A stretch of 64,000 nt of DNA from Lactifluus volemus (lineage: Eukaryota > Basidiomycota > Agaricomycetes > Russulales > Russulaceae): contig WTXI01000016.1 of the NCBI GenBank assembly GCA_022376515.1, forward strand, positions 496,001 through 560,000. The letters run 5' to 3'. Below, piece after piece: positions 2,196-17,907 of this stretch. The translations under genes were made by a program, and so were the position numbers. The notes under the pieces are model-generated. The model was not told the DNA's origin. It saw nothing but the letters and a program-made list of their open reading frames with translations, and did not search any database. Numbering within the stretch: position 1 is the stretch's first letter; each line of letters starts with the position of its first letter.

Positions 2196-4307
2196 CTACA
2201 GCGGACGAATCTCCGATGACCAGTAAGAGGAATCCAGTCTCTTGTACTTGAGGAAAAACTGGCCCTGAGCTGGCCGGCACGCAAAGGCGTCGTTCCAGTT
2301 GGGTATGGGTTGCGGGTCGGCGATCCGACCGCTTGCATCTACGGTATCAAAGTCGAAGTCCACCAGTAGCAGCGCGGCGACGAGTTTAATCGTGAGTCTG
2401 GCCAGGCGCGCCCCGAGGCAGGTCACCCTCCCTGCCCGTGCGACAATCATCGGTCAACTTTTTTTTTTTTTGAGCCTGGGCCTGGCTCTCGTCCATTGGG
2501 ACGAGAGAACGCTTGGAAAAAAAAAGACCAACGCACCTCCACCCCATCCCAAATACGTAAGGTCGGCTTTCGGTTGCGACCGCGCGGGATCGAATTTCCA
2601 TGGCTCGGGATACAACGCCGGGTTGAGGTGGACGCTCGAAAATGGGTACACCACGAGCGTGCCTGTCGGTATCACTTTGCCGTCGATGTACATTGTCGGG
2701 CCGACATTCCGCCGCATTGCAACGTGCGGCTGGGCTATGCGGAGCGCCTCACGGATGAGTAGGTCAAGGACGGGTGTCTCACTCTCCCACGCGCCGAGGG
2801 GGATAGAGGATAATGCGGTAGACTTGGAATCGCGCGGTGAATTGGATTCGGAGATGGTCTCCAGGGTGTGCGACATGATCAAGTTCTTGACTTCTGAGCG
2901 TGCTTCGTTGCGCCATTTCGGATGACAACCAAGAAATAGGACCAGCCAGGAAGCTGAGATAAGGTAAGCGGCTTCTCTCGGTAGCGGCAAACCCGTCACA
3001 TGCCTGTGGTACCAGTGGACCGCGAGCCGGCCGTTACGAGACCCATCATGAACTAAGTAATGAACATTAGTTTGAACGACCAGCAGAATTTGGAAAACGC
3101 CATGCATACCCCCACAATTGCTGACAACTCATCTCCCTCGTCCAGGAAGATTTGGAGAGTGTCATTAAAAGGTACACCACTCTGATTCCTGACTTTGATT
3201 GCATTGACAATGATATCATATATCTGTTTCGTCGCTCGCGCTTTCGAGAGCATGGCAGGACTTGGGAACCATGGGAATAACACAGTCGCGGGAGTCGTTC
3301 CGCGATCAACTTTCTCGTAAAGCTGTCTGAGACGAGCCACAATTTCGGGGTCGCCAGCTATTTCCGTACAAGTGAGACAGCGCAGGGTTGCTTGAAATAC
3401 GATCTGAAATAGGAAAGTTTGTCAACATCCATTTATCATGTTAAGGAGCGCGCAAGCATCACGCTACCCCCGAACGACCACCCTTTTTCGACAAAGTGCC
3501 ATCTCCGGGGGTAGAGGGTAGTAGCTGTAGAGGGAGTAGCCAACTTACTCCGTATATCTTGTCAAAGGGATCAAGGGACCCGGCCTTTTCCCATGAATGT
3601 AAGAGCCGTCGGCCGTCATTCAAAATTTCGGGAATCACTGTGCGGAAATAAGGTGAGGTGGTTCGTTCGATGTTGGCCATACCACGTACATTCCGTCAGG
3701 CGTTCGTTCCGTTGGACGTTCGCCAGGCGCTTATATATTCTAGCAACCCGCTGTTGACGAAGTTCTACTGTCACGCCATGGATGAGAGGGAGCTAGGGCG
3801 GGAAATTTCTCTGATGGGTGAAGCGCCTTGGTGAGTTATCTAGTATTGCTCACCGCCCCCGAAAGGATTCTGAAGCCTTCCTGGAGATCCAGCCCTTTCG
3901 CGTTCAAAAATTCTCTGCGTCCGCGTTCTCCAGAGACGACAACAACGTTATTCTGTTTCCACAGGAGAAGGCGAGCCGGCGTCAACGCAAATTCGATAGC
4001 CTCAGACCGGGGGGGGGGGGGGGGGATCAACAAGGGTTTGACGTACGTGCAGAAGTCTGAATTGAAACAGCCGCTGATCTGTTACTCTAAAGCCCCAGGC
4101 GAGGAAGTCGTGGCGCCGCTGAAAGAAGGACAGAGTGTTGAAGAGGGGGAAACGGGGAAGGTTCGGAGGAGTATCTTGCTGGCGTTTGTTGCAGCGAAAG
4201 TGAGACACAACTAACAGAAGCAAGCTAAGAGTCACTAGGACGAGCATCGAAGGAAGTTCATGTTCCCAAAGGAATTGCAAGAGCGTGGCTACTCCGACCG
4301 GATACAT
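2196..4307 (-). CDS. Cytochrome P450 monooxygenase
   Basis: The product is a microsomal P450 that should oxidise a small molecule with NADPH-P450 reductase. ATG at 4305-4307 opens an N-terminal membrane helix ([13 protein letters not shown]) and a Pro-rich hinge. Further exons carry SGERGRREF (about 3920), VQRNERLTE (about 3690), [19 protein letters not shown] (about 3560-3640) and the segment ending DEGDEL (about 3130). The I-helix [15 protein letters not shown] (about 3000-3040) is followed by an intron and [14 protein letters not shown]. The K-helix, with its ExxR as EALR, is near 2745, and a [14 protein letters not shown] meander follows near 2600. The haem region YLGWGGG is joined across an intron at about 2461-2535 to [13 protein letters not shown], with Cys as thiolate ligand. 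The stop is at 2196. Substrate unknown. The 16-base G run at about 4009-4025 lies in intron 1, so no break in the protein is needed. Confidence 0.85.
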
Positions 4308-5375
4308 GGTAGCAGGCAGGTCGGGTCGCAAAAATGAAACTAGCAGAGTAGAAGCGGTGGGTATAAATACCGCAGGGACCTGGAGGTACGCAGTGAGAAG
4401 GTTGTAAACGGTCACGCCGGAAGTTTGAAAACTACCGGAAGGGATATATATACTAGAAGACGGCCGGAAACCGATGGAGAGATTCAATACAAATGTGCAT
4501 CGTCACGAAACGGTCCCGACAAGTCCAGTGTGTATGACGCCGTCTTTAGGAACAAATGATCAACCCAGATTGCACCGCGGCAGTTCCGGGGAGGGCCGTT
4601 GGGGGGGAACTTGGCGATGCCGTGTGTGACGGAAAAGGTGAATTGCGTGTGCAGAAATCTAGCGTTGCGGCTCCGCGATGCAAGCTTCCATCATAAGACT
4701 CGGAGTAGCTGCCGTGCTACGATGTCATCTCGCTAACTTCGTGAGGCACCAGTGGATTACTACTGAAACTGAGCGAAAATAGATCCGAAGGGAGCTGGAC
4801 AAAGACCCCAGGGCTGAGGACGGTGTTTGGTGTTTGGAGGATGGTCTCTATTTTGAAAAAGAGTTGATCGTGCGGCACGTGTGGAGTCGTGACCTAATCC
4901 GCGGATCAACGGATATGCCGGATTATATCTCGGACCTCGCATGCTCACATTAGGAATTGAGGACTCGGAATTGTGCAAAGCATGTCTAATTGTCCTACCT
5001 GGTAGAATGAGAGACGACAGATAAACGCCATCACCAAAATCTTCCACTCGCTCGCGAATAATCGTCCAAGCCTGGTCCGATCATGTGATGTGCGAACCTT
5101 CGCAGTCGTTGTCTTTATTTCTTCGGCCTCTTACTGTACTATCACGAGTTTTGATTTGTTTCCAGTTCCCAGATTCTTTCGTTGTTTCTTACTTTAAAAA
5201 ATGGTGTATGAAACAAATTGCAAATTGTATTAAATACAAGAAAAGTAAAGCCCAAAGAATGTAACGACTTTTCCTCGTTCTGTGCCTGCTTCCCTCGCCT
5301 TGTTAAAATCCTCCAAGTCCCACACCTGTTTTCAGATTGGTCAAATGGTATATCTCCCAGGGCCCATCCCACGAA
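4308..5375. other. Intergenic between P450 and IZH genes
   Basis: This is 5' flank of the P450 gene and 3' flank of the IZH gene. A TATAAATA string at 4362-4369 lies 55 bases upstream of the P450 ATG, but it reads TATTTATA on the gene's strand and is a weak TATA candidate. No supportable ORF. Confidence 0.4.
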
Positions 5376-6646
5376 TTATTCAGGACACATGCCCTCCAAA
5401 CTGTGGTGATAATCAAAGGCTGCTAGCACACCAATATATGTAGAAAGAGCAGCAAGCACAACAAAGATGTGAAAGATTTGGTGAGATGAGAAGAAAATGT
5501 CAAATCTGCCAGGGCAGAGGCTTTCGGGAACCCTATTTGAGCTAGTACAGATCAAGATGAGTGAGCCAGCTGTAATTGGCGGAATTGGCTTACTATATAA
5601 TAGTCCCAATGATATATATGGCAATAGCAGTTAAGAACCAGAAAAAACCCATATCTCGAGTGGCGGTGTGTATTCCATGAAACCACATTGAGTGACACAT
5701 GGGTACAAAGCCAGCCAGACCCAAGCTGACAAAAAATCTAGTTCTTACATGCCTGTAGACTGGATTTATATATTTAGGGTTTAAAACAGTGTATGCTGAA
5801 GCTACAGGAGAGTCAAAACACTGAGTGTGATTGAGAATTGGTCACGTACTGAGGCCGGCAAAAGTAAGAAGCAGAGAGTAACCAATCCTATAGTGTGGTT
5901 TGCAGTAGAATCCATAATGTATAATAGGATAGAAGGAGCCCAATATGAGGACTAGGTAGAAAAGTCATCATGATGTATCAAGGAATCTAGTGTTGAAAGG
6001 CTTGCCTATGATCCCGGAAAAATCAAATGCAAGGCATCTAGCAGCTACCTTTGGGAGCAGACGTTGTGTAGCTCATTCATAGCGCGATGAAGGGAAAGAC
6101 ACTTACTTGCTTTGAACGTGCTTTGAACGTGTGGAAGACCGCACTACAGGACAAACAGAATATTGCTGACAAGATAAAGATTGAAATCATGAAACGATCG
6201 GCCCAGGACACGTCGTAACGAGCCTTATCATCGACGGTGCATAGCAAGAAAACAAAGAAAATGGCTGCGTGAAAGTGGCTATGAATGTTTACTAGTTCGG
6301 CACCGTGAGGTCAATGCACAGTGCGCGTGGCTTTGGACTGGCGTACCAGTTTCATTGTGCAGGTCTAAGAAGAAAAGATTCAGCAACAGAAAAAAAATCG
6401 ATGATCTTGCACGCACATCCGAAGACCGATTCCAAACATTTCAGCCAACTATCCAGCTCCCTGAATGCAGGAAGAAAGATCAACATAAACGTCGCTGACG
6501 AGAAGGTAAACTCACCCTCTGTATCCCGTTAAAATAAATTCATTGTGTCTCGACCATTCCGGTGACTCCGCATATGAAAGCGTACGGTATTTGCGAACAG
6601 ATGGCTTTGCCAAGAGAGGAGAATCTGGCTCAAGTTCAGCGCGCAT
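5376..6646 (-). CDS. PAQR/IZH family seven-helix membrane protein
   Basis: The product is a progestin/adipoQ-receptor-type membrane protein; yeast Izh proteins affect zinc and sterol homeostasis. I read eight exons: 6516-6646, 6417-6460, 6347-6364, 6107-6291, 6006-6048, 5850-5951, 5594-5801 and 5376-5541. They sum to 897 nt (298 aa plus stop) and every junction is in phase. Landmarks in order: PEWSRHNEFILTGYR, FGYLHNETVNIHSH, SAVFHT, FDFSGIIVLILGSFYP, then GFVPMCHSMWFHG, and C-terminal RFDIFFSSHQIFH. These supply the family's conserved His and Asp residues. Exon 3 is an 18-nt micro-exon. The intron at 5952-6005 has a GC donor. Exon 4 contains an in-frame 11-bp tandem duplication (6110-6131). 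The start is the first Met in the frame leading into the conserved core. Its 5' flank is cut about 360 bp upstream by the transposon. Confidence 0.9.
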
Positions 6647-7006
6647 GGACTGAGCACTGGCAGCGCGTTGCTGAACAATGATGGCAGGCATGCCAGTGGT
6701 AGGAGTATGCAGTTGTGAAAGACAGATAAGCTCCCATTTTGTCGCCGGGTTTCATGGCCACGAAGGGTTGTCGTGTGCGAGCCGAGCTCAGTCCCTTTCT
6801 TGAGTACGTCTGTGTCATCACTGTAAGCCCGCTTCCCGCGATGTCGCGTTGTCTTTGTTCTGGGCCTGAGGGTTGGCCTCCCTACCTTTTGGATCCCCTG
6901 TTTGTGAGCTGTTGTAGTTAGGTCTGGGCGATTAGTGGGCACAAATACTAGCTGTGTAGTTTGCGAACCGAGCTCAGTCCCTTGATTACGTCATTAACCA
7001 TGCAAG
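6647..7006. other. IZH upstream flank up to the transposon
   Basis: No gene seen. It holds the presumed IZH promoter and ends in the left copy of the 9-bp target duplication at 6998-7006. Confidence 0.5.
6998..7006. repeat. Left 9-bp target-site duplication
   Basis: CCATGCAAG is repeated directly at 17899-17907. The bases flanking the two copies differ on both sides, so the repeat is exactly 9 bp. Confidence 0.85.
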
Positions 7007-7049
7007 GGCTTGTCCCCTGTAACAAAGAATTACATCATTTTCACGTGAT
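7007..7049 (+). repeat. Left terminal inverted repeat of the MULE
   Basis: 43 bp, with positions 7019-7049 identical to the reverse complement of 17856-17886. It starts GGCTTGTCCCCT and the inner part contains a CACGTG E-box-like core at 7042-7047. Confidence 0.88.
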
Positions 7050-7212
7050 TTACCTACTTAATATAGTAACATTACATAACATCACGCTGTCACACAGACA
7101 TTGCCCCTTTCTCATAAGCGCCTATAAACCAATTAAGGGAATCTTACACATCGTCACGGTTGTAACACCCCCCCCCCCGCCCCAGTAGCCTAAATAGGAA
7201 ACACGTCGGGAT

Positions 7213-7258
7213 GAGCGCGATCCTTAGCGAAATACGAGCGCGATCTATAGCGAAACAC
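7213..7258 (+). repeat. Two 23-bp tandem repeats near the left transposon end
   Basis: Units 7213-7235 and 7236-7258 both begin GAGCGCGATC and contain TAGCGAAA. A third, partial AGCGCC follows. Subterminal arrays of this kind often bind transposase in other DNA transposons; here that is inference. Confidence 0.75.
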
Positions 7259-7632
7259 AAGCGCCATATGCAGCAGGAATATATTAGACTTACGGATATG
7301 TAGCAACCCGCATGTTAGATATCAGGCACTGTTTCATCAGACCAAGGAGGGCACAAATGAGTAGCCCATTCACGCTGATGATGCCGACACAACAGCAATG
7401 TACCTTACAATAAAAGCGGGATTCTTGAGCATTGAAGTCACACGGTTGACAAGGAGTATTCAGATTGTGCAAATAGTACGCGCATGCTATTCCAGAACTG
7501 GTGTTCTGTCCGGTGCAGAGGAGTTTAATGCGGATAAAATTACATCCCGGTTAGTGGGATCAAGATTTACGAGTCCAACTATGCTACAGAGTCAGACACC
7601 ACGCGTCGGTGTCTTTACCTACTAATCGTCCT

Positions 7633-10600
7633 ATGGCGGCACCATCCCACATGTCTCTGATCAGCCCCACAGCTGTGGGTATTATTCCTTATCGACAGGA
7701 TCTAAGACAAGATGGGGTCAAGGTATGCACATTAGAGTTACTAAGTCACCTGCTAATGATCTACATAGGTATCAACTCGAAGCTTGTGGTGCGATGAAAT
7801 GCAAGCCCAACAAATTGAAACACGCCATCGCGAAGGGCTAGTTATCCGGCAGACCTTCACCAGCTCCCCATCTTCACAGGCATCAGCCAACGCTCTGCTT
7901 TCACAAAATAAGCTAGACTTACCCAGCCTGGAGCAACTTGAGAGCCGATGGATGACGGTGTGGTCATCCACATGGCGGTCTAAGAAATCCCAAATTGATG
8001 TTAAACGGCTATTACTTCAATGGTACTCAGTGTCCTTTCATGTACTCATCAGAATTTAATAAACATACCATCCTTTAAGCAAATGTGGGTACAACAACAA
8101 AGCGCGTCGAGATGCTACATGTCAATACACAAATGGAGATACAGGAAAACGACACGCACCTTACGATTTTACAGGATGCTTGGCTCATGCCGACATCACA
8201 TACGAAAAGGAACCCCTCAGTATACGTCGCATCGTTGGCATCCTAGAGCATAACCAGGAATGTCAACTTAGTGTTATGACACGAATGCCATCCATCCCAC
8301 TGCATCCTCATGTGATTGAAGTTGCGTTAGCACAACTAAGGGAAGGAGCTAGGCACGTACCGAGAATGGATGTGCCCCGAATTGAGCTGACTATATTGTG
8401 AACACAGTATCACCTCTATTCAGATGCGCAATCTGGAAATGTACCATCAGATGGCATATCGGCAACAGTCGTCCACTCACCCAGACCAGGCAAATTTCCG
8501 GTACAATATACAGCGCTCCGATCTTTATCGAATCTACACACGGCATCACCAATCCCAAGGGATCGATATCAAAAAGCGTCCAGAGGATAACGTTCATGGC
8601 TGGATGAATCCAGACTCACCTCATTTCTCTAAAGAGATAGCCGATTGCATCTTTCATTATAGCGCTAGAGCGACGCGCGGTGATCGCTTCGAGATCTTTA
8701 TATCCACCAAGGATATGGAGGACGCAGCATGGTCCTATGTCCACGAATCTCAGCTTATTCTTGACGGAACATTTGGTGTCTGTTCTTCAAGACTGTTACT
8801 TTGGATTGCGATGGGTGTAGATCCCCAACGAAAAGGCATACCTGTCGCATTGTTCCTATTTTCCGCACCTTCAGGGACCCTTGCAACACATGCCGGATAT
8901 GACATAGCGGTTCTTACCCACATACTGAGTACCTGGAAGAACTGGTTGTCTTCTCGTAAATCAGCCAATAACCGAATATTCGCCCCATGTGTCGCCATTA
9001 CCGATACCGACACCAAAGAGCGAGGCGCATTGATAGCTACATGGCCTTCCATCATTCTCTTACTCTGCAGATTCCACGTGCGGCAGTGCTGGACTAGCAG
9101 GCGCCAGACTACTCTAACGAAGCGAGGCAGTCACCTGCAGTTTCAGGTCCTTGAGCGCATTCAGAATCTAGAGTTATCGTAAGTCACTCATATATACTTA
9201 CCGAGACGTAGACACTTACCATACCCACAAGATTGCTCGCCGGCACCAGCTATCAAGGTGCATTAGTCCTCATTGACACTGAAAGAAGGTACCTGGAAAG
9301 TCTCGTTAACGATGAGGCTAGTAAGCAATGCGTCAAGGGGGGTATTGCATTCATTACATACCTGTCAAACTTCTGGATGCAAGAAGATCTATGGCGATCC
9401 TGGTCTGGCTACGGACGGAACCAGGCTGCATCACGACTGGGTATTCCTATCGAAGGGGTGCTCCCGACAACGAACCACCTTGAGGCTTTTAACAGGGTGA
9501 TCAAGAAAAAACACTTATCTTACTGGCAGCATTCGGGCTACCGGCTTCGATTCGACGTGCTCATCTTCCATATTGTTCGACACATCCTACCTTTCGTATT
9601 TGCCCAGGTCCGTCAACGAGACCAGGAATCTGCATGGCGAGTGACCCGATTTGCTGCCGCTGCCGGAGGGGGGACGTTACTACCGAGGAAACACGCATCT
9701 GGGGATGGACTCATCCAAGCGTCAGAGCCATTGGCATGGTATGAAAAAGATACTCGCCGGGAAGCAATGGCCATAGGAATCCTTCAAGAGCGACGTCTTT
9801 TGCCAATTGCTAGCGGACACCCATCCGAACTCTGGGCAACCTGTGCGACATCTTTATCGAATCCTATTTTTCAATTTCATGAGCGATACTGGCTCACGTA
9901 CAACATAAAGGGCACGGGTACATGTACCTGTCTTGACTGGCTGCAGCGTGGAGGGGCATGCAAGCACCTGCGTGCATTCCGATTACATATACTGCATCGG
10001 GTCCACATAGGGCAGCTGTCCAGCGTTGGCGATTTCCCTCTGTCATTGCTCGAGGCACAGGATAAGCGTGCTTCCCTCGAACAGGAGATGAATCCACCTA
10101 CCGTCCCCATATTACTGCACATATATCCTAATGGCTACACAAAACCGATACCGCCACCTACAATGGTACCATCAGCTTTCCCCGAAATTCCACCCGTTAA
10201 GGAAATGACGGACGTACCAACCCTTATTGATATGGAGCTCGAGAATGCGGTCCATATGGGATTGAATAGCGATGACGAGGGTAGTGATTCCGGAGATGAT
10301 TCGGATCAGGATAGATCACTGGTATGATCAATCTAATTTGGCCACGTCTGTCACTGATCTAAAGATGGGTTAGTATGGAAGTAATTCCCGTGCCATTTCT
10401 GTCCAGCTAGATCAGCGCATCGACTTTGACCTCAAGATGATCTTACCCAAATTATTTGACCTATGGGGAAACCTCCGTGATTCGACAACCTTCCGTCATA
10501 CCGAGAGGATCGAAGACCTCCAAACGGCCTTATACGGCATACAAGAGGAGATCAACTCCAAGTCACAAAAAAGCTCCGAAGATCTGGAGACTCACCATAG

Positions 10601-10733
10601 CATGCCTTCTGGTTCCTCGACTTCCAAAAAGCGTAAACTTGACTTCCTCAGTACCCCACCAACGATGACGAGGCCACTTCCTCCCTCTCCAGAGGAGAGG
10701 CAGATACGGCAACCGTCTCGCAAGATATTTTGA
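7633..10733 (+). CDS. Mutator-like (MULE) transposase with SWIM zinc finger
   Basis: The enzyme should cut and join the ends of the surrounding element. I read six exons: 7633-7722, 7769-8022, 8080-8356, 8424-9178, 9232-10321 and 10407-10733. They total 2793 nt, giving 930 aa with all phases consistent. A Cys/His-rich N-terminal DNA-binding region (CKCGYNNKARRDATC and onward, about residues 114-165) precedes the catalytic core. Candidate acidic residues are D321 in ILDGTFG, D401 in AITDTDTKE and E543 in PTTNHLEAFN, with CRFHVRQCW just after the second. The SWIM finger is C690-x-C692 to C702-K-H704. The C-terminus has a charged helical stretch and a KKRKLD nuclear signal. All three acidic positions are present and I see no stop, so it looks autonomous. 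The N-terminal exons are less certain than the core. Confidence 0.87.
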
Positions 10734-10904
10734 GCTACCTGTGGGCAACAGCTTGTGAGGGCAGGGGTAGAGAAGGACGACGACGACGAATGACTTAATT
10801 AGTACAATATCACATTAAATACATGGAATATCTAACTATATGGTCCAGCTATGAAGGTATTGATATCTACCTGTCCAAAAAATGTACGTTGTGCGATTGG
10901 TCCG

Positions 10905-12300
10905 TTAGGAGGTGGGGGGGGATTTTTCCAGCAGTCGCTGGACAATCTCTTGAATCGTGTCAGCGTTAAGCGGACGGCGCCGAGTGAAACTGTACCCACG
11001 ACGATGAGTTGCACCTTCAGAGGTGACGGAGGTCTTGAGCTGACCCCACCTCTGCTGGAGTTTATGAATAGTCCAGTAGTCCCATTTCTCGTCCGGAAGG
11101 GAATACCATTCAATGTCCTCTTCCCTGTCAAGATCTAACGACGCGATTCTGCAAACTAAGTAAGTTTGAATAGATAGGAGTTGCCCTAGCACTTACTTGT
11201 GTACGAGAATGAAGGTGTCAGCGACACTCCAGCGACGCGTTTTGCCGTCATTTAGCATCGCTGGCACCATGTAATCATACCTGTGAATATAAAATAGAAT
11301 ATATAGCAGGGCATTGGGTTTGCGCATACCATTTGTTGCGGCACTGGGTGGCCGTCCGCTTGTGATCCATCAGCCTCGCTACCTCAGTCCAGGGAATACG
11401 TGGTGGCAGGGATGAGGAGCCCACCCATCCCAGGCTTTTGACGATCTCTGTAAGACGTGATTCCTCCTCAGCGGTCCATTTACCTGCACCTCGATAAGCC
11501 CCGTTTCACAAACTAAGCAAAAAATATTTACCTTTTCGTCGAGTGTCCTTATGTTCAATGCATTTCTGGAACCGGTTCAGACATTCCTTTTTGGGTCGTT
11601 CCAGGGCTTCCGAGACCTTGTCCCAGTCCCGCCCGTACATTTCGACCACCCTAGGAGTGGCGTACAAGTCAATAGTACAACCCATACACATGTAGATCAC
11701 TTACTGCGCCAGTGTTGCATCATCCTCAATTGACCATTTCCCCCCACTTTTCAGGGGCTGGTAGATGCGTCGTACATAGCCAAAAACGGACCCGACGCGC
11801 CTCTGAGGAAGAGCGCGCGCTAAACCGGATCAGCGGATCAGCGAACAGATATGGCTTGAGATAAGGTGCAGGTGCACGACTTACTGATATGCGCCCAAAA
11901 GCCTAATTGCCTATTGGCCCCGAACAAGAGATCACCTTCAGACATATTATGTCGCTGTTGAGGGTAAATGTAATGCCGTATAAGCAGAACGCGTCACTTA
12001 CCTCCATGTATTCGCTGATCACACCGCGTATGCATTCCGTTTCGGACTCCGTGTACTTACCCTCACGACAGAGAATGCCTGATTATCATTTAAGCGATAC
12101 GACCGGGTGCAAAGGAGATAAACAATACCTTTGCTCCGGAATTCCTCCGCCGTCCACCACTTTGTAGCGAGCTGTTCCCTATGCTCTTCAGAGCTCGGTG
12201 ACGGGTCAGCGACATTTCGGGGACTCGGGTGGGCTACCGTGAACGTAGCGGGGCGATCAATGTCCGGATGCGGAAGCGGTTGCGGTTGGGACTGTGGCAT
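10905..12300 (-). CDS. Multi-repeat Myb/SANT DNA-binding protein
   Basis: This resembles fungal Reb1/DMTF-type Myb proteins. ATG at 12298-12300 leads a Pro/Ser-rich N-terminus ending WWTAEEFRSKG. At least four Myb-like units follow across small introns: KYTESETECIRGVISEYM with FWAHIS and ALPQRRVGSVFGYVRRIY (11760-12090); GKWSIEDDATLAQ with VEMYGRDWDKVSEAL (11550-11760); GKWTAEEESRLTEIV with TATQCRNKW (11330-11490); and RRWSVADTFILVHK with a final QQRWGQLK (11010-11280). The stop is at 10905-10907. It is convergent with the transposase gene and divergent from the Spt5-like gene. Known for the family: sequence-specific DNA binding. Inferred: it may bind the element's ends or the nearby palindrome. 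Ordinary chromosomal origin is possible but the flanking ends place it inside the transposon. Confidence 0.8.
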
Positions 12301-13130
12301 CGTTTAGATTTTTTTTTTGTTTCCTTTCTTACGGTTTTGTTGATTATAATAATTAAAAATATAAACTATCTGACCTACGATCGTACGCTAAAGACTATGT
12401 GCTAGCTATAAGGGAGGAAGATGGTGGTGCGAGAAAGAGAGAACAATGCGCTTGAGTAAATGAATAAATACGCGCCTACTGCGGCCCCGTACAATTTGGC
12501 GCACGTGTCAACCGCTGGCGGACCGGTCGGTGAAAACTTTACCGGTTGCTTTACCGGATTCCGAAATTCCCATCTCCCGGGCTGGGACCGGTCCGCCAGT
12601 GGTCAACACGTGCGCCAAATTGTACGGGGCCGCAGTAGGCTCATATTTATTCATTAACTCAGGCGCGTCGTTTTCTCTTTTCGCCCCACCATCTTCCTCT
12701 TCCCTCATTCATCACATCTGCCCATATTAGACTTAGAATAGATTAGAACAGGATCTGCGTAGAATAGAGTTAAATTATTTCTATATAATAAACCAAAAAA
12801 ACAGTTCGTAAGATCCGAAAGGGTAGTTGGACACTTCAGCGTCGCTGCGAGGAGTACACACCTAATAGAAGGCATGCCGAATCCACGGGGCTGTTCGGTA
12901 CGTAACTTTCGGTACGCGTCTTATCGCGGTTGGTGCAAGTGGAGCTGATCCCGCACCTGATATCGCCTATTCTCAATACTTTCAGTGGAGCACGGGTGCG
13001 TGGAGCGGCCGAGGTGAGTCCACGCGTTCTCGGGAATGATACATGCATCTGATGTGGTAAAAGCTCAGTCCTTATATCAAAGGCCTTACACCCAGCCTCC
13101 AACGCCCTCTTCTCTCAACGTCCTTCACCC
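12301..13130. other. Divergent intergenic region with large palindrome
   Basis: It lies between the ATGs of the Myb gene (-) and the Spt5-like gene (+). It is AT-rich at both sides and has the palindrome at 12411-12706 in its left half. No gene is supported. Confidence 0.6.
12411..12706. repeat. ~300-bp imperfect palindrome inside the transposon
   Basis: The core arms 12474-12528 and 12586-12640 are reverse complements at 52 of 55 positions. The 57-nt centre repeats ACCGG-type motifs. Weaker symmetry continues outward to GAAGATGG near 12416 and its complement near 12698. It could be a nested MITE-like element, a shared regulatory hairpin for the two flanking divergent genes, or a cruciform. 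Confidence 0.85.
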
Positions 13131-15728
13131 ATGACAGACATCTCGGTGTGTGAGTTCCAGACAATATGGACCGTGCTTAAGGACCGTGCTAATATTTTGC
13201 TTTATTTAGCTCTACGACTTACTTGATCTTGAAGCGATCGTAGCTGATGAAGACGAAGAAGATGTGGAGTATGAGGAGGAACTAGGAAAGTAAATTCTGT
13301 ATCAGTTTGTACATCAATTAACTATCCTACTAGACGATTTTTTGGCCGATGATCTGGAGGAAAGCGTCACAGATCCGAGCGAACGTCCTGCCTTCCTACC
13401 GGACGATCGGGTTTCGGCTACAGAGGCCTCGGAATGGGAAGCACGGGTGAAAGACTTTGCTAAGGACTCTGCCGAAGCATATCGGTACGATGTGGATGTT
13501 GTCCCGCAGCATTTACTCGTCCCGACGGACTCCGATCCTGGTATATGGGCTGTCCGGGTCAAGGTAAGTCATCGCACCGTGCATAAGTATTCATTTGACA
13601 ATTTCTAGCTCGGATTCGAGAGGAGTCTGGTTCTTCAAATCTTCCGCCGGTGCACAGGAGGATTAGAGCAACTGGACGTCACCTCCGTTTTTTCCCGAGA
13701 TGGGATCCCAGGCTATGTGTTCCTGGAAGGCAGTCTCCCGTCCGTGGGACGGGCCCTCAGTGGGCTGGTAACCGTCTTGGCCCATCACAGTCCACGGCTC
13801 GTCCCCATTGAGCAGCGTATTGCGTTGCTCAGTAGCCGCAACCCATTGGCCGGTTCCATCCAGGAAGGTCAATGGGTGCAGATAACCTATGGACTTTATC
13901 GCAACGATATTGGGTTTGTATGTGAATGCCGTGACTCATCGGACTTAGACATAGTCGTTGCGCTCGTCCCTCGGATTCCCACCAAGACCGATCTGCGTAG
14001 TGCGGGTCACATCGGTAAGAGGAAGCGGTCTTTCAGACCTCACCCGCGTACTTGGTCCGAAGCCCAAGTTGCACATGAATGGACCGCTGCGAAAGTGCGG
14101 AACATCTCGTCTCACGCGTTCATATTCCGGAATGAAACATACGAATCCGGCTTGCTCATGAAAGGCTATTCGTCGACCAGTCTCGTCATCGTCCGCTCAC
14201 CCTCCCCTTCTACCTTCCTGATGTTTCTCTCTGCCTCAAACTTCAGTGAGCGGCCCTTATTCCGCCAGTGTCGACATCACTTTGTCCAAGATTCACTACA
14301 GCCCCAGCAAAGGGTTAAGGTGGAATCGGGGACCTCGTCGGCCTCGTCGGCCGTATAAATGAAATCATTGATGGCGTTGCCTCTATCATACCGGAGAAAG
14401 AAGATGACTTTCAGGTGATGCCCCTAGTCGCTCTCCGTGATTTAGCGCTGCGTTATGTTCCAGGAGACAAAGTCAAGGCCCGCTGTGGCGACTCATCTGG
14501 GATTGTCGAATCGGTCAACGATGCCGATCAAAGATTGGTTTATGTCCGATCTAACCCGATCCAAGAGGTAAGTGATTAGATTTCACAGCGATAACTGTTA
14601 CTGACAATTAGAAGATTACAACTTTAACAGATTTTGTCGAGTTCTACGATCCTCCCCTTCAGCGGTCACAACAACGGGTAGGGACTTGGGTTGAGTTCCA
14701 TGCGGATCGCGAAGGTCAACAGGGGAAGCGGCGTGGGTTCATCAAGGAGATCGATGGTGGTATCGCACGCATAGTGGATGAACATTCTTTCCGCGAGGTA
14801 AGTATCAGTATCTTGAAGAAACATTTCTGACGTCCTTGTATAGTTTATGATCAATGAGCATCAGTTCAACGTCTGCGCTGTACAGGGTCCTTCTTTGCCA
14901 CGGAACGATCCAGTCCATCCCTTTGTTGATCGGCGAGTCGTGATCACGCGCGGCCGCTTCAAGTCTTATCGTGCCCTTATCAAGGATGTCGGCCCATCTG
15001 GGGTGATAGTGGAACCCCAAGCTCTCCTGGTTTCCAGGAGCTCGCCAAGGCAGCTCATATCATGGTGCGACTTCATACTCGCGTAAGTGTGTGTGTGTGT
15101 GTTTTTGCATAGGATCTCACATGTGAATTTGCGGAGATAAGACCCGCGAAAGAACGTGCAAGGCCACCCCCCCCTCGCCCTATCACTCCACCGTCCGGTG
15201 CACCCGTTGACTTTGAGAGGCTCACACCGGAACCGGAGGGCTCTCAGAGAGGTAGGTGTATCTTATCGCCATCTCAGTGAAAGATAACATATGTCCTTAG
15301 ATCATTGGCTGTTTTTCCCCGCAATACGTACGCTTCTCCAGACCAAGAGGATACCGTTCACCATCCGTGGAGTGGACTCCAACCAAGATTTGGTGATGTA
15401 TAAAAACAAGACGGCCAGGTCAGTACCTGACGTTCAGTGGGACTCTCCGCCGGGAGAGGGCGAAGTCATCATCAGCATGGTTAGAGGCGTCAACATTGTT
15501 CAAAAGAGTATAGATCCCAAGTACCTCTTCCCATGGGAGCCAAAGGCAGGTGGTGACGTCGTAGTCATAAGTAGGAACTGCCAGCTATTTGGCTGTTCAG
15601 GTACTATAGTTGACAGGAAGGATGACGGTCAGTTCATTGTACGATTCGCAACCCCAAGTGCTTCACTGGATATGCATCTCCCTAGTGAGCACCTCGCCGT
15701 GTTAGAGCCAATTAGAGTACGTTCCTGA
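13131..15728 (+). CDS. Spt5-like NGN/KOW transcription elongation protein, possibly frameshifted
   Basis: True Spt5 travels with RNA polymerase II. The first exons give MTDIS, then an acidic stretch (DEDEEDVEYEEE). An NGN-like domain follows: GIWAVRVK joined across the intron at 13564-13608 to LGFERSLVLQIFRRC, then GIPGYVFLEG. KOW-type segments follow: GQWVQITYGLYRNDIGFVC (about 13870), VPGDKVKARCGDSSGIVESV (about 14460), RVGTWVEFHADREG (about 14680), RRVVITRGRFKSYRALIKDV (about 14930), and GGDVVVISRNCQLFGCSGTIV (about 15550). Two points argue for decay. Near 14320-14335 the open frame (QQRVKVES) must shift to continue as IGDLVGLVGRINEI, and no workable intron was found. The exon end near 13290 also leaves the wrong phase with a GT donor. 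It may be a recently broken gene or a sequence error. Confidence 0.72.
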
Positions 15729-15982
15729 CAATTGTTTGTGTTCTATACCATCGTAATCTATGGACAATGTATCGCACAGTGAGAAGAGGGACTGTAAGAG
15801 GACCCAAAAGACTATGCGACATGGTACGTCTTTTATTTCTTTGCCTGGACGGAAACACTACATGTAATTCAAGACTTATGAGATAAGATAAGTGGTATTT
15901 CGCTTATCTGTATGAGCCAACACTGATATATGACATAGATATCTTCACTATCTACAACGCTGGCGCAATCTCTGGGTATCAA

Positions 15983-17449
15983 TCAGTCATCATCCGAAGA
16001 GATCTCGATTACGACAACTGGCTCCGGAGAAGGTTCGATCACCGGCTTTGGCTCTGGAGAGAAGAAGGCTACAGGATTTCGTGTCGGTTTAGTGCCACTT
16101 CCTCCAGCACTGTTTCGCTGTGCCATGGCAATCGCACTGGACGCGGGGCCTCCTATCTTACGGCGCTTACGGATGGTACCGCTGGCCTCATACTGCCTGG
16201 CGTTAAGTTGCTCACCGGAGCCACTAGGAGATGGACAACGATGCATGTGCATCAAACTGGAAGATGTCAACAGCTTGCACAGTGGGCACTGTTTGACGAC
16301 GCGTATGAACTCGGACATTGAAATCCCCGGGCAGTTGGGGTCGAACATCGTCAGGAGCAATGCCCGGGAGCCCTCAACTCCTAGAGGGGCCATCGCCGCT
16401 TCGAGTTCCTGTTGGAACTGAAAGTTTGTACCAAAAATATCTGGGATACCTAGTGAGTGTAAGCATCTTTCGACAGTTCTGTAGGTCAACTTGAACTCAC
16501 GAGGGGCCCCATAGTCCAACAGCTCTGTGTCAGTCCTACGGATCGCAGAGGGGGAACTAGGTCTGGCCTGAGACGGTGGCAGTGTCTCAGCTTCGACCTG
16601 GGGCAGCTGGGAGCTGGCCATAGTCGGCGTCGTTTGGACCTTAGGTGTGACTGCACAAGGGTAATTAGAGGATTCATTGCAAGCATAACCATTACTGACC
16701 ACTCTTTCTGGTAGGTGTTTCAAATGGGCTGGGGTGTTTCCCATCCTGATCGGGTGACCCCATTAGTTGGCTTGCGGTCAAGCGCAGTGCTGAAACGATG
16801 ATCTGGTGAGGTACTTGGTAGGTGGCGCTGGTACTTACCATCTCGAAGAGGATAGATGCGTCGTGGCACGTCGGGATTTGCTGTGATGAAGTCCTGTAAA
16901 TCAACTGTTCGGAGAGCCTGTAAGTGACCTACTCATATAGCTTGTACAATCACTCACCCCAGTACGAGCACTTCATGATAGAGCACATGATGATAGGGCG
17001 TCCATAGTTGGGGCTTCGAAGAGACCGCGGCACATGGAACAGGGCAGGATGGTCCATACCATCCATAAGTCCACAGAAGCACATGGGCATCTCCCAGCAC
17101 CGCTTCTTGTAGTAGTCTTCAAGACCAGACACTCGCCACTGGGCATCTCAGGGCTGCAGTCACGAACTGTGAGTAGTATGCACATAACCAATGTGGGAGA
17201 GATGACTTACTATGGGACTGGCTTCAGTGGTTGATCTTTGCCAACAAAAGACCCGATGAAAGTCGCAAATTGGAGTTTTTGCTTCCATGGACAGAATACG
17301 GGGTCATACTTGGGAGTGTTGGGAGTCTGGGGAGTGCCAGGGTTCGCGACAACGTTCGGCATAGTGGGGGGAACAACAGGTGAAGAAGACAGAGAGGTGA
17401 GAGGTGAGAGGGGGCTTGGAGGCACGGAGTCGGGGAGTGGTGCAGGCAT
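15983..17449 (-). CDS. GRF-type zinc-finger protein with C-terminal SUMO-interacting motif
   Basis: The first exon (17210-17449) is Pro/Ser-rich. A second exon (about 16977-17130) has the GRF pattern: MCFCG, then SPNYGRPIIMC, then KCSYW, matching C-x-C, N-x-GR, C and C-x-x-W of zf-GRF. Short exons follow (LQDFITANPDVPRRIYP near 16870). A long last exon contains a conserved-looking helical block and CPLCKLLTSSSLMHMHRC, a probable second C2HC/C2H2 finger (about 16240-16310). The protein ends PVVVIEISSDDD, a textbook hydrophobic-acidic SUMO-interacting motif. GRF fingers bind single-stranded nucleic acid in enzymes such as APE2 and TOP3A. I recognise no catalytic domain. It is convergent with the Spt5-like gene, 254 bp apart. 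The exact joins between the middle exons are uncertain. Confidence 0.65.
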
Positions 17450-17898
17450 TGCCTGTTGGCTTCGCTGAACAAAAAATCATGTATTTATACCACTTCTGAA
17501 TTCATAATTTCATTCCGTTGCGAGCTTGTTGCGACTCTGCATTCTGAGTACCAACTGCCAGGTAAATGGCCTGCATTCAGTGGACAAAATTTCATTTTAC
17601 CATTCTCCGTGCAGGGTCGAATGTGTAGGTCTAAATTTTTTACATGCCGTAGATATACACAATTTCATGACAATCAAAGGTCTAGCTACAACTGGTAATT
17701 CCGGGGGCGGGAAGGACTAACTATATCTAAGGAGGTGGGCGCACATAGCTAATTTGGGAGGAGGCGCGTCGGGGCGTTATGGTGACAGTCACGTCCGTGA
17801 GTGGGTGACACTCGGGGTTGTCCGAAGCGTGCGAAGTGAAAATGTGACTGTTACCATCACGTGAAAATGATGTAATTCTTTGTTACGGCGCACTTTTC
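17450..17898. other. Right subterminal region of the transposon
   Basis: Presumed promoter of the GRF gene plus the right end. A hairpin is formed by 17779-17792 and 17844-17857, which match at 13 of 14 positions. No gene is seen. Confidence 0.6.
17856..17898 (-). repeat. Right terminal inverted repeat of the MULE
   Basis: Reverse complement of the left end over 31 consecutive identical bases, followed by 12 more diverged outer bases. It is preceded by a separate hairpin formed by 17779-17792 and 17844-17857. Confidence 0.88.
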
Positions 17899-17907
17899 CC
17901 ATGCAAG
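17899..17907. repeat. Right 9-bp target-site duplication
   Basis: Direct repeat of 6998-7006, placed immediately outside the right inverted end of the transposon. Confidence 0.85.

Follow-up and report, generated by a model that had tools for sequence, protein, structure and literature searches.

Organization of the element and its insertion site

A Mutator-like element (MULE) of 10,892 bp occupies positions 7007-17898 of a stretch of Lactifluus volemus DNA 64,000 nucleotides long (contig WTXI01000016.1; the whole stretch analysed is called the window below). It carries genes for a MULE transposase, a Reb1-like Myb protein, a relative of the elongation factor Spt5 and a protein with GRF-like motifs, and full-length copies with the same gene set are found elsewhere in the assembly that was searched (62.4 Mb, 628 contigs). 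The Myb and Spt5-like genes, together with the palindromic spacer between them, also occur in an element of a second transposon superfamily. The features of the window element are given in Table 1.

An earlier note on this DNA had described 43-bp inverted ends with a 31-bp perfect core, a flanking 9-bp direct repeat taken as a target-site duplication, and, inside, a MULE transposase together with Myb/SANT, Spt5-like NGN/KOW and GRF zinc-finger proteins. Apart from the GRF assignment, which could be upheld in part (see below), these calls were borne out. The two termini agree poorly in their outer 12 bp, and the length of the duplication depends on where the end is called, being 9 bp if the element ends in C and 8 bp if it ends in CC. 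The 9-bp reading suits all three copies of subfamily 1 (defined below) as well as the short relative C326. The same assembly also contains the empty site that the earlier note had asked for: on contig C337, the flanks are joined around one CCATGCAAG, with 474/482 positions equal, and the 5' flank of the window element matches this contig at 98%. Because C337 joins both flanks in this way, chance or artefact as the source of the element ends is ruled out. Host SPT5 is present twice in the assembly (contigs C57 and C78), and therefore both nuclei of the dikaryon seem to have been assembled as separate contigs.

Table 1. Features of the Mutator-like element (window positions).
Feature	Position	Strand	Basis or remark
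Target-site duplication CCATGCAAG, left	6998..7006		Sequence; single in empty allele C337
Left terminal inverted repeat, containing the 31-bp perfect core	7007..7049	+	36/43 positions equal to right end
MULE transposase gene, ~927 aa; six predicted exons, uncertain at the start and in the first exons; open in this copy	7633..10733	+	PF10551, PF04434, motifs
Reb1-like Myb gene with several Myb repeats; frame open here; 5' end of model uncertain	10905..12303	-	PF00249; homologue P0016 vs 5eyb
Portable module: Myb gene, palindromic spacer, Spt5-like gene	10916..15798		blastn vs C47 element; also C154, C166
Palindrome with inverted GGCGGACCGGT and CGCACGTG blocks; its two arms (95 nt each, 89% complementary) are separated by 57 nt	12434..12680		Separates the Myb gene from the divergent Spt5-like gene
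Spt5-like gene: acidic N-terminus, NGN, KOW; ~729 aa in C223; frameshifted in this copy	13131..15782	+	PF03439, Foldseek
GRF-like gene, ~400 aa in other copies; frameshifted in this copy by 10-bp deletion near 17131	15983..17449	-	Alignment, motif
Right terminal inverted repeat	17856..17898	-	36/43 positions equal to left end
Target-site duplication CCATGCAAG, right	17899..17907		Sequence; single in empty allele C337

Copies of the element and selection on its genes

When the assembly was searched with the element ends, the 5' 200 bp matched 29 times and the 3' 300 bp 41 times. The ends were examined at 13 loci, including the window, and the other end matches were left out. Distinct 9-bp duplications (8 or 9 bp at C317) were found at 11/13 of these loci, a size that fits the 8-11 bp span of MULE target-site duplications given in PMC6446971. 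At the remaining two there was no second end, the 3' end at C12 being unrecoverable and the element at C620 running off its contig.

Seven of the loci are full-length copies with matching ends and the same four-gene layout, and their duplications are all different (CCATGCAAG, CTCGAACAG, CCAAAGGTG, GGATATGGT, CAGGTGGTC, CCTTACAAA and GGCCCAAG(G)). They form two subfamilies. Subfamily 1 consists of the window copy, C223 (99.91% identical to the window) and C112 (97.65%), and subfamily 2 of C1, C22, C384 and C317, which are 87.7-88.1% identical to the window and 99.40-99.98% among themselves; C1, C22 and C384 are nearly identical (99.97-99.98%). The earlier note had named recurring copies of this kind as support, and inverted ends that never flank these genes as a refutation. 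The ends do flank the four genes, although the contents of the short relatives and of family 3, described below, are different. Allelic duplicates posing as copies could be rejected for all seven, since duplication and flank differ in each. Contig C574 was excluded from the count, being 100% identical to C1 over both copy and flank.

Empty alleles were sought for four of the seven copies (window, C1, C112 and C223). For the C1 copy, an element-free allele is present on C456 (C456:3500-4800) at 97%; it is less clean than that of the window copy, being 2 bp short of what the duplication predicts, and this shortage may be an allelic difference or the trace of an excision. The search of the same assembly for a second (empty) allele of the C112 and C223 copies found none.

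Gene models were drawn from C223, guided by conservation with C1, and their starts are uncertain. According to these models, the frames of all four genes are open in C223, C112 and C1. The Myb frame is broken in C22 and the transposase frame in C384, and both are broken in C317, which also has two insertions. In the window copy, the transposase and Myb genes are open. The loss of 1 bp near 14327 brings its Spt5-like frame to a stop at codon 348 (730 in full), and the 10-bp deletion listed in Table 1 does the same to its GRF-like frame at codon 118 (397 in full). Neither gap is present in the other six full copies. The transposon with three additional genes proposed in the earlier note is thus supported by the copies, their duplications, the empty allele and the selection on the genes, although the window copy itself is not an intact four-gene element.

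When subfamily 1 is compared with subfamily 2, the ratio of non-synonymous to synonymous substitution rates (dN/dS) is 0.10 for the Myb gene, 0.30 for the Spt5-like gene, 0.24 for the GRF-like gene and 0.32 for the transposase gene, as against 0.79 for a control of non-coding sequence treated as 375 codons. Purifying selection acts on all four genes, and from the distance between these values and the control it follows that each was kept working while the elements diverged.

The Myb/Spt5-like module and its occurrence in a Plavaka-type element

The palindrome between the divergent Myb and Spt5-like genes is kept in all seven aligned MULE copies, one block having one change in C317. Within the window element there are two occurrences of the sequence CGGACCGGT, each inside the palindrome, and there is none in the remaining 53 kb of the window. 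This sequence was not found in the short relatives C61 and C326, nor at three family-3 loci. As C61 and C326 possess ends and duplications without CGGACCGGT, the palindrome is not needed in cis for movement.

Myb and Spt5-like genes with the divergent arrangement of the MULE are present at three further loci (C47, C154 and C166). When the whole MULE was compared with the whole C47 element (blastn, E up to 1e-3), all 9 matches lay inside positions 3910-8792 of the MULE, which correspond to the module, and the two long ones were 71% and 73% identical. The palindrome is partly common to both elements, with blocks matching at up to 90%. At the protein level, the MULE Myb is 30-67% identical by piece to those of C47, C154 and C166, and P0003, the Spt5-like protein of C154, is 56-59% identical overall to the MULE version; the Spt5-like gene of C166 contains stops. 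Because all of the matches are confined to the module, the gene pair either moved between the two kinds of element or was taken up by both from one source.

In C47, the pair adjoins a gene for a Plavaka transposase (PF18759) and a DUF6698 gene. The stretch common to the three loci starts with CATCGCG and ends with CGTGATG, and is flanked by duplications of CA (C47) and TG (C154); C166 shows no duplication, its right flank being that of C47 and its left flank different. PlavakaB elements have, according to PMC12730594, CATCA..TGATG ends and a 2-3 bp duplication. The element at C47, C154 and C166 agrees with this description apart from the fifth base of the left end (CATCG instead of CATCA) and, judged by these sequence features, fits PlavakaB, a superfamily other than the Mutator-like one. 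It is about 14.6 kb long and includes the Myb, Spt5-like and DUF6698 genes.

By our reading, a Myb match lies near 12 of the 19 Spt5-NGN loci of the assembly, two of the 19 being host SPT5. Ten of these 12 Myb and Spt5-like pairs were read (the seven MULE copies, C47, C154 and C166), with C477 and C223 near 1.74 Mb left out, and all ten are inside transposons.

Proteins encoded by the module

Similarity of the Myb protein to Reb1 was scored on its homologue P0016, which is 91% identical to the Myb search query. The annotation of P0016 is on a contig equal in length to C22, for which our gene model has a frameshifted Myb gene. Residues 82-282 of 295 in P0016 are co-linear with residues 141-331 of Reb1 (5eyb) at E 8e-17, the top score among 26 PDB sequences, and the runner-up was SNAPC4 (E 3e-13). 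The Myb protein of the element therefore appears most like Reb1. Five relatives were found, two in L. volemus and three in Lactarius (akahatsu, sanguifluus and pseudohatsudake), the latter at 39-43%.

For the Spt5-like proteins, Pfam places Spt5-NGN (PF03439) over the cut-off, and KOW5 is over it in P0003 and P0004 and under it in the MULE protein P0001. Against the NCBIfam Spt5 model, the protein scores far below the cut-off. The predicted structure (pLDDT 59.5) retrieved chains of polymerase II elongation complexes as the top Foldseek matches (E 7e-30), which are taken to be Spt5, and as single domains the NGN matched 3h7h (TMt 0.80) and KOW1 matched 4ytk (TMt 0.77). A protein search, which scored the 7994 candidates with the most shared words and says nothing on absence from other fungi, returned seven proteins: three from L. 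volemus, two from Lactarius sanguifluus, one other and one distant protein called SPT5. One of the Lactarius sanguifluus proteins, P0005, combines Spt5-like and DUF6698 domains in a single annotated protein; DUF6698 is also the neighbour of the pair in the Plavaka-type element of L. volemus.

Six transposon-like Spt5-like proteins resemble each other at 37-85% but share just 23-28% identity with host SPT5, and in a tree of eight sequences the split between the transposon-like proteins (L. volemus, Lactarius and one other) and host SPT5 is fully supported. On both of these grounds, the gene is not a fresh capture from the host. As far as sequence and predicted folds indicate, the encoded protein is an Spt5 match at the level of its domains, distinct from host SPT5.

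Transposase, GRF-like protein and related elements

The transposase scores just below the Pfam cut-off of 27.6 for PF10551 (E 5.8e-06, 27.1 bits; 25.0 in a second scan) and also carries a SWIM finger (PF04434). Its motifs DGTFG, ITDTD, CxxH and NHLE..N, which we take to be the DDE triad, are preserved in C1, C591 and C12.

The GRF-like protein has a spacing motif CxCG..GR..C..CxYW, a CPxC-x9-H-x3-C motif and a C-terminal VVVIEISSD[DE]D tail, which is kept in seven aligned proteins. We presume these to be GRF-, UBZ- and SUMO-interaction-like, respectively, with no profile support. With pieces of the finger, neither a Pfam family (E up to 10) nor a GRF structure or other PDB match was obtained, so that the spacing motif speaks for the GRF zinc finger named in the earlier note, and profile and PDB comparisons do not. 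The predicted fold has a pLDDT of 30.7. A search with the protein gave eight matches, all from L. volemus. One annotated L. volemus protein, P0011, is without the finger and carries the letters of the window's shifted frame, and is likely the GRF-like product of the window copy.

A third family (C446 and C591) has related transposase (48-64% identical by piece) and GRF-like (44-62%) genes around a different middle gene, for which a Pfam search gave no family. Relatives of this middle gene (74-78% identical; C207, C589, C599, C607 and C608) also occur where no such transposase was detected. Within the assembly, 16 of the 21 transposase loci have, by our reading, a GRF-like match nearby, and because the two genes occur together in all three families, we infer that the GRF-like protein is a partner of the transposase.

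Two short relatives, C61 (C61:65131-72097, ~6.4 kb) and C326 (C326:1239-9267, ~7.4 kb), have the same ends and 9-bp duplications, and none of the four proteins was matched within them. The duplications of family 3 and of these short elements are CCGGGGCCG, GAAAAGTCT, TTTGAAGCC and GCAAAAGAA. The C61 element holds a fragment of a phosphatidylserine decarboxylase gene (PF02666, 24.0 bits, cut-off 22), and C326 has similar letters; both are possible candidates for fungal Pack-MULEs.

Adjacent to the window element, a SEC62 gene lies about 200 bp beyond the right end, and a cytochrome P450 fragment (PF00067) is present to the left, at 2454-3128 on the minus strand.

Discussion

On balance, we read this element as a recently mobile MULE of two-part design, in which a shell surrounds a regulatory module that keeps the element transcribed, and we hold this reading a little more firmly than its negation. 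The shell would consist of the MULE transposase and the GRF-like protein between the inverted ends, and the insert of the Reb1-like Myb and Spt5-like genes, running in opposite directions from one palindromic spacer. For the module, keeping the element transcribed is the most likely function. The Reb1-like protein would bind the palindrome and, once bound, hold nucleosomes and silencing away from the shared promoter, and the Spt5-like protein would travel with RNA polymerase II and bring transcription through the element. In this scheme, expression of the element, the binding site, the open promoter, elongation and escape from silencing are what we infer. A suggestion of the earlier note, that the transposon has DNA-binding and transcription factors of its own, gains strength from the Reb1-like character of the Myb protein, the Spt5 domains and the presence of the pair in a second superfamily. 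It may further be that the pair is a kit handed on whole from one unrelated superfamily to another, like the TET/JBP genes, in which a Reb1-type protein both opens and insulates the element and an Spt5-type elongation factor of its own pushes polymerase II along; to this wider proposal we give somewhat less than even credence.

Several observations weigh against a transcriptional role of the module. Repeats of TTTACCGG resemble the yeast Reb1 site but are missing from C112 and subfamily 2, which weakens their reading as Reb1 sites, and yeast Reb1 also terminates transcription via a roadblock, the opposite of what is proposed here (PMC9531808). In the Spt5-like protein, only the single domains are well matched, the full-length fold reaching a TMq of up to 0.26, and the C-terminal repeats of host SPT5 (TPNPY) are lacking; beyond residue 560, P0003 has three [ST]P sites, and repeats were not seen by eye. 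Family 3 has its own middle gene and the Myb/Spt5-like pair was not detected there, so that not every MULE of this kind requires the module. Finally, not all of the predicted splice sites are conserved across subfamilies and copies, and the gene models therefore hold errors.

The main rival explanation makes the Myb and Spt5-like proteins co-factors of transposition, which would attach to the ends or carry the transposase into the nucleus in the manner of the PIF/Harbinger Myb-like protein. Transposition depends on the latter, which recognises a subterminal motif of 9 bp and co-localises with the transposase (PMC9710019), and purifying selection on all four genes of the MULE is compatible with such a role. 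It is harder to reconcile with conserved palindrome blocks in the middle of the element, where both CGGACCGGT sites of the window copy lie, with a family-3 shell that is the same around a different middle gene, and with unrelated transposases (MULE and Plavaka) that go with one shared module; we regard a co-factor role as unlikely, if worth serious attention. MULEs are also able to capture genes, as the decarboxylase fragment in C61 illustrates, and the GRF-like, Myb and Spt5-like genes might be passive passengers derived from the host, as in Pack-MULEs. Such an origin is already disfavoured, and in our view improbable, given dN/dS values of 0.10-0.30 against 0.79 in the non-coding control, an Spt5-like protein that is distant from host SPT5 and separated from it together with the Lactarius proteins, and the recurrence of the module in a second superfamily.

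The proximity of Myb matches to 12 of 19 NGN loci, in two types of transposon, and the related Myb and Spt5-like proteins of Lactarius (protein level) would also suit a module that serves the host, or one that is a detachable selfish regulator using several transposons as vehicles and benefiting none. All ten of the pairs that were read lie within transposons, however (the two named above being left out), and we think it quite improbable that the module has this independent existence.

Among known systems, the closest are the Mutator-like elements MuDR, Hop and Mutyl, which likewise combine a MULE transposase and SWIM finger with inverted ends, a 9-bp duplication and extra genes (mudrB in MuDR and mutB in Mutyl; PMC6446971). 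The present MULE differs in having three extra genes, one of them for an Spt5 relative, and the fungal rows consulted in the table of that paper give 1 or 2 open reading frames. PIF/Harbinger elements also bear a Myb protein; the one described here is Reb1-like, with several Myb repeats and an Spt5-like partner gene, and belongs to another superfamily. The VANDALs of Arabidopsis are MULEs. These Mutator-related transposons carry a protein that acts on their own chromatin, VANC (PMC10398659); the element studied here has a Myb and an Spt5-like protein instead, whose anti-silencing role would be putative. Fungal TET/JBP transposons (Kyakuja, Zisupton and Plavaka among others) show one type of accessory gene spread across several DNA-transposon superfamilies, thought to provide escape from silencing (PMC12730594); in the present case a module of two genes, Myb and Spt5-like, is what the superfamilies have in common, and Mutator elements are involved; the terms Mutator, MULE and KOW give no match in the main text of that paper. 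With the Reb1 and Spt5/NusG families, the proteins share sequence and domain folds, and they differ in being transposon-encoded and, for the Spt5-like protein, in the missing C-terminal repeats and the low identity to host SPT5.

MULEs with extra genes, Myb proteins of transposons and accessory genes common to several superfamilies are each already known. Among the paper titles and abstract openings listed (few subscription journals, no bioRxiv), no account was found of this element, of a transposon-borne Spt5 relative, of its pairing with a Reb1-like protein or of its occurrence in both Mutator-like and Plavaka-type elements, and we know of no earlier transposon-encoded Spt5.

Spt5 is a near-universal elongation factor, and a relative that is borne by a transposon and maintained by selection would give a handle on how mobile DNA stays transcribed. 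The near-identical copies, the empty allele and those copies whose accessory genes are broken make it possible to test this in L. volemus. More broadly, the presence of one two-gene module in elements of both the Mutator-like and the Plavaka type suggests a sharing of accessory kits among fungal transposons that goes beyond TET/JBP.

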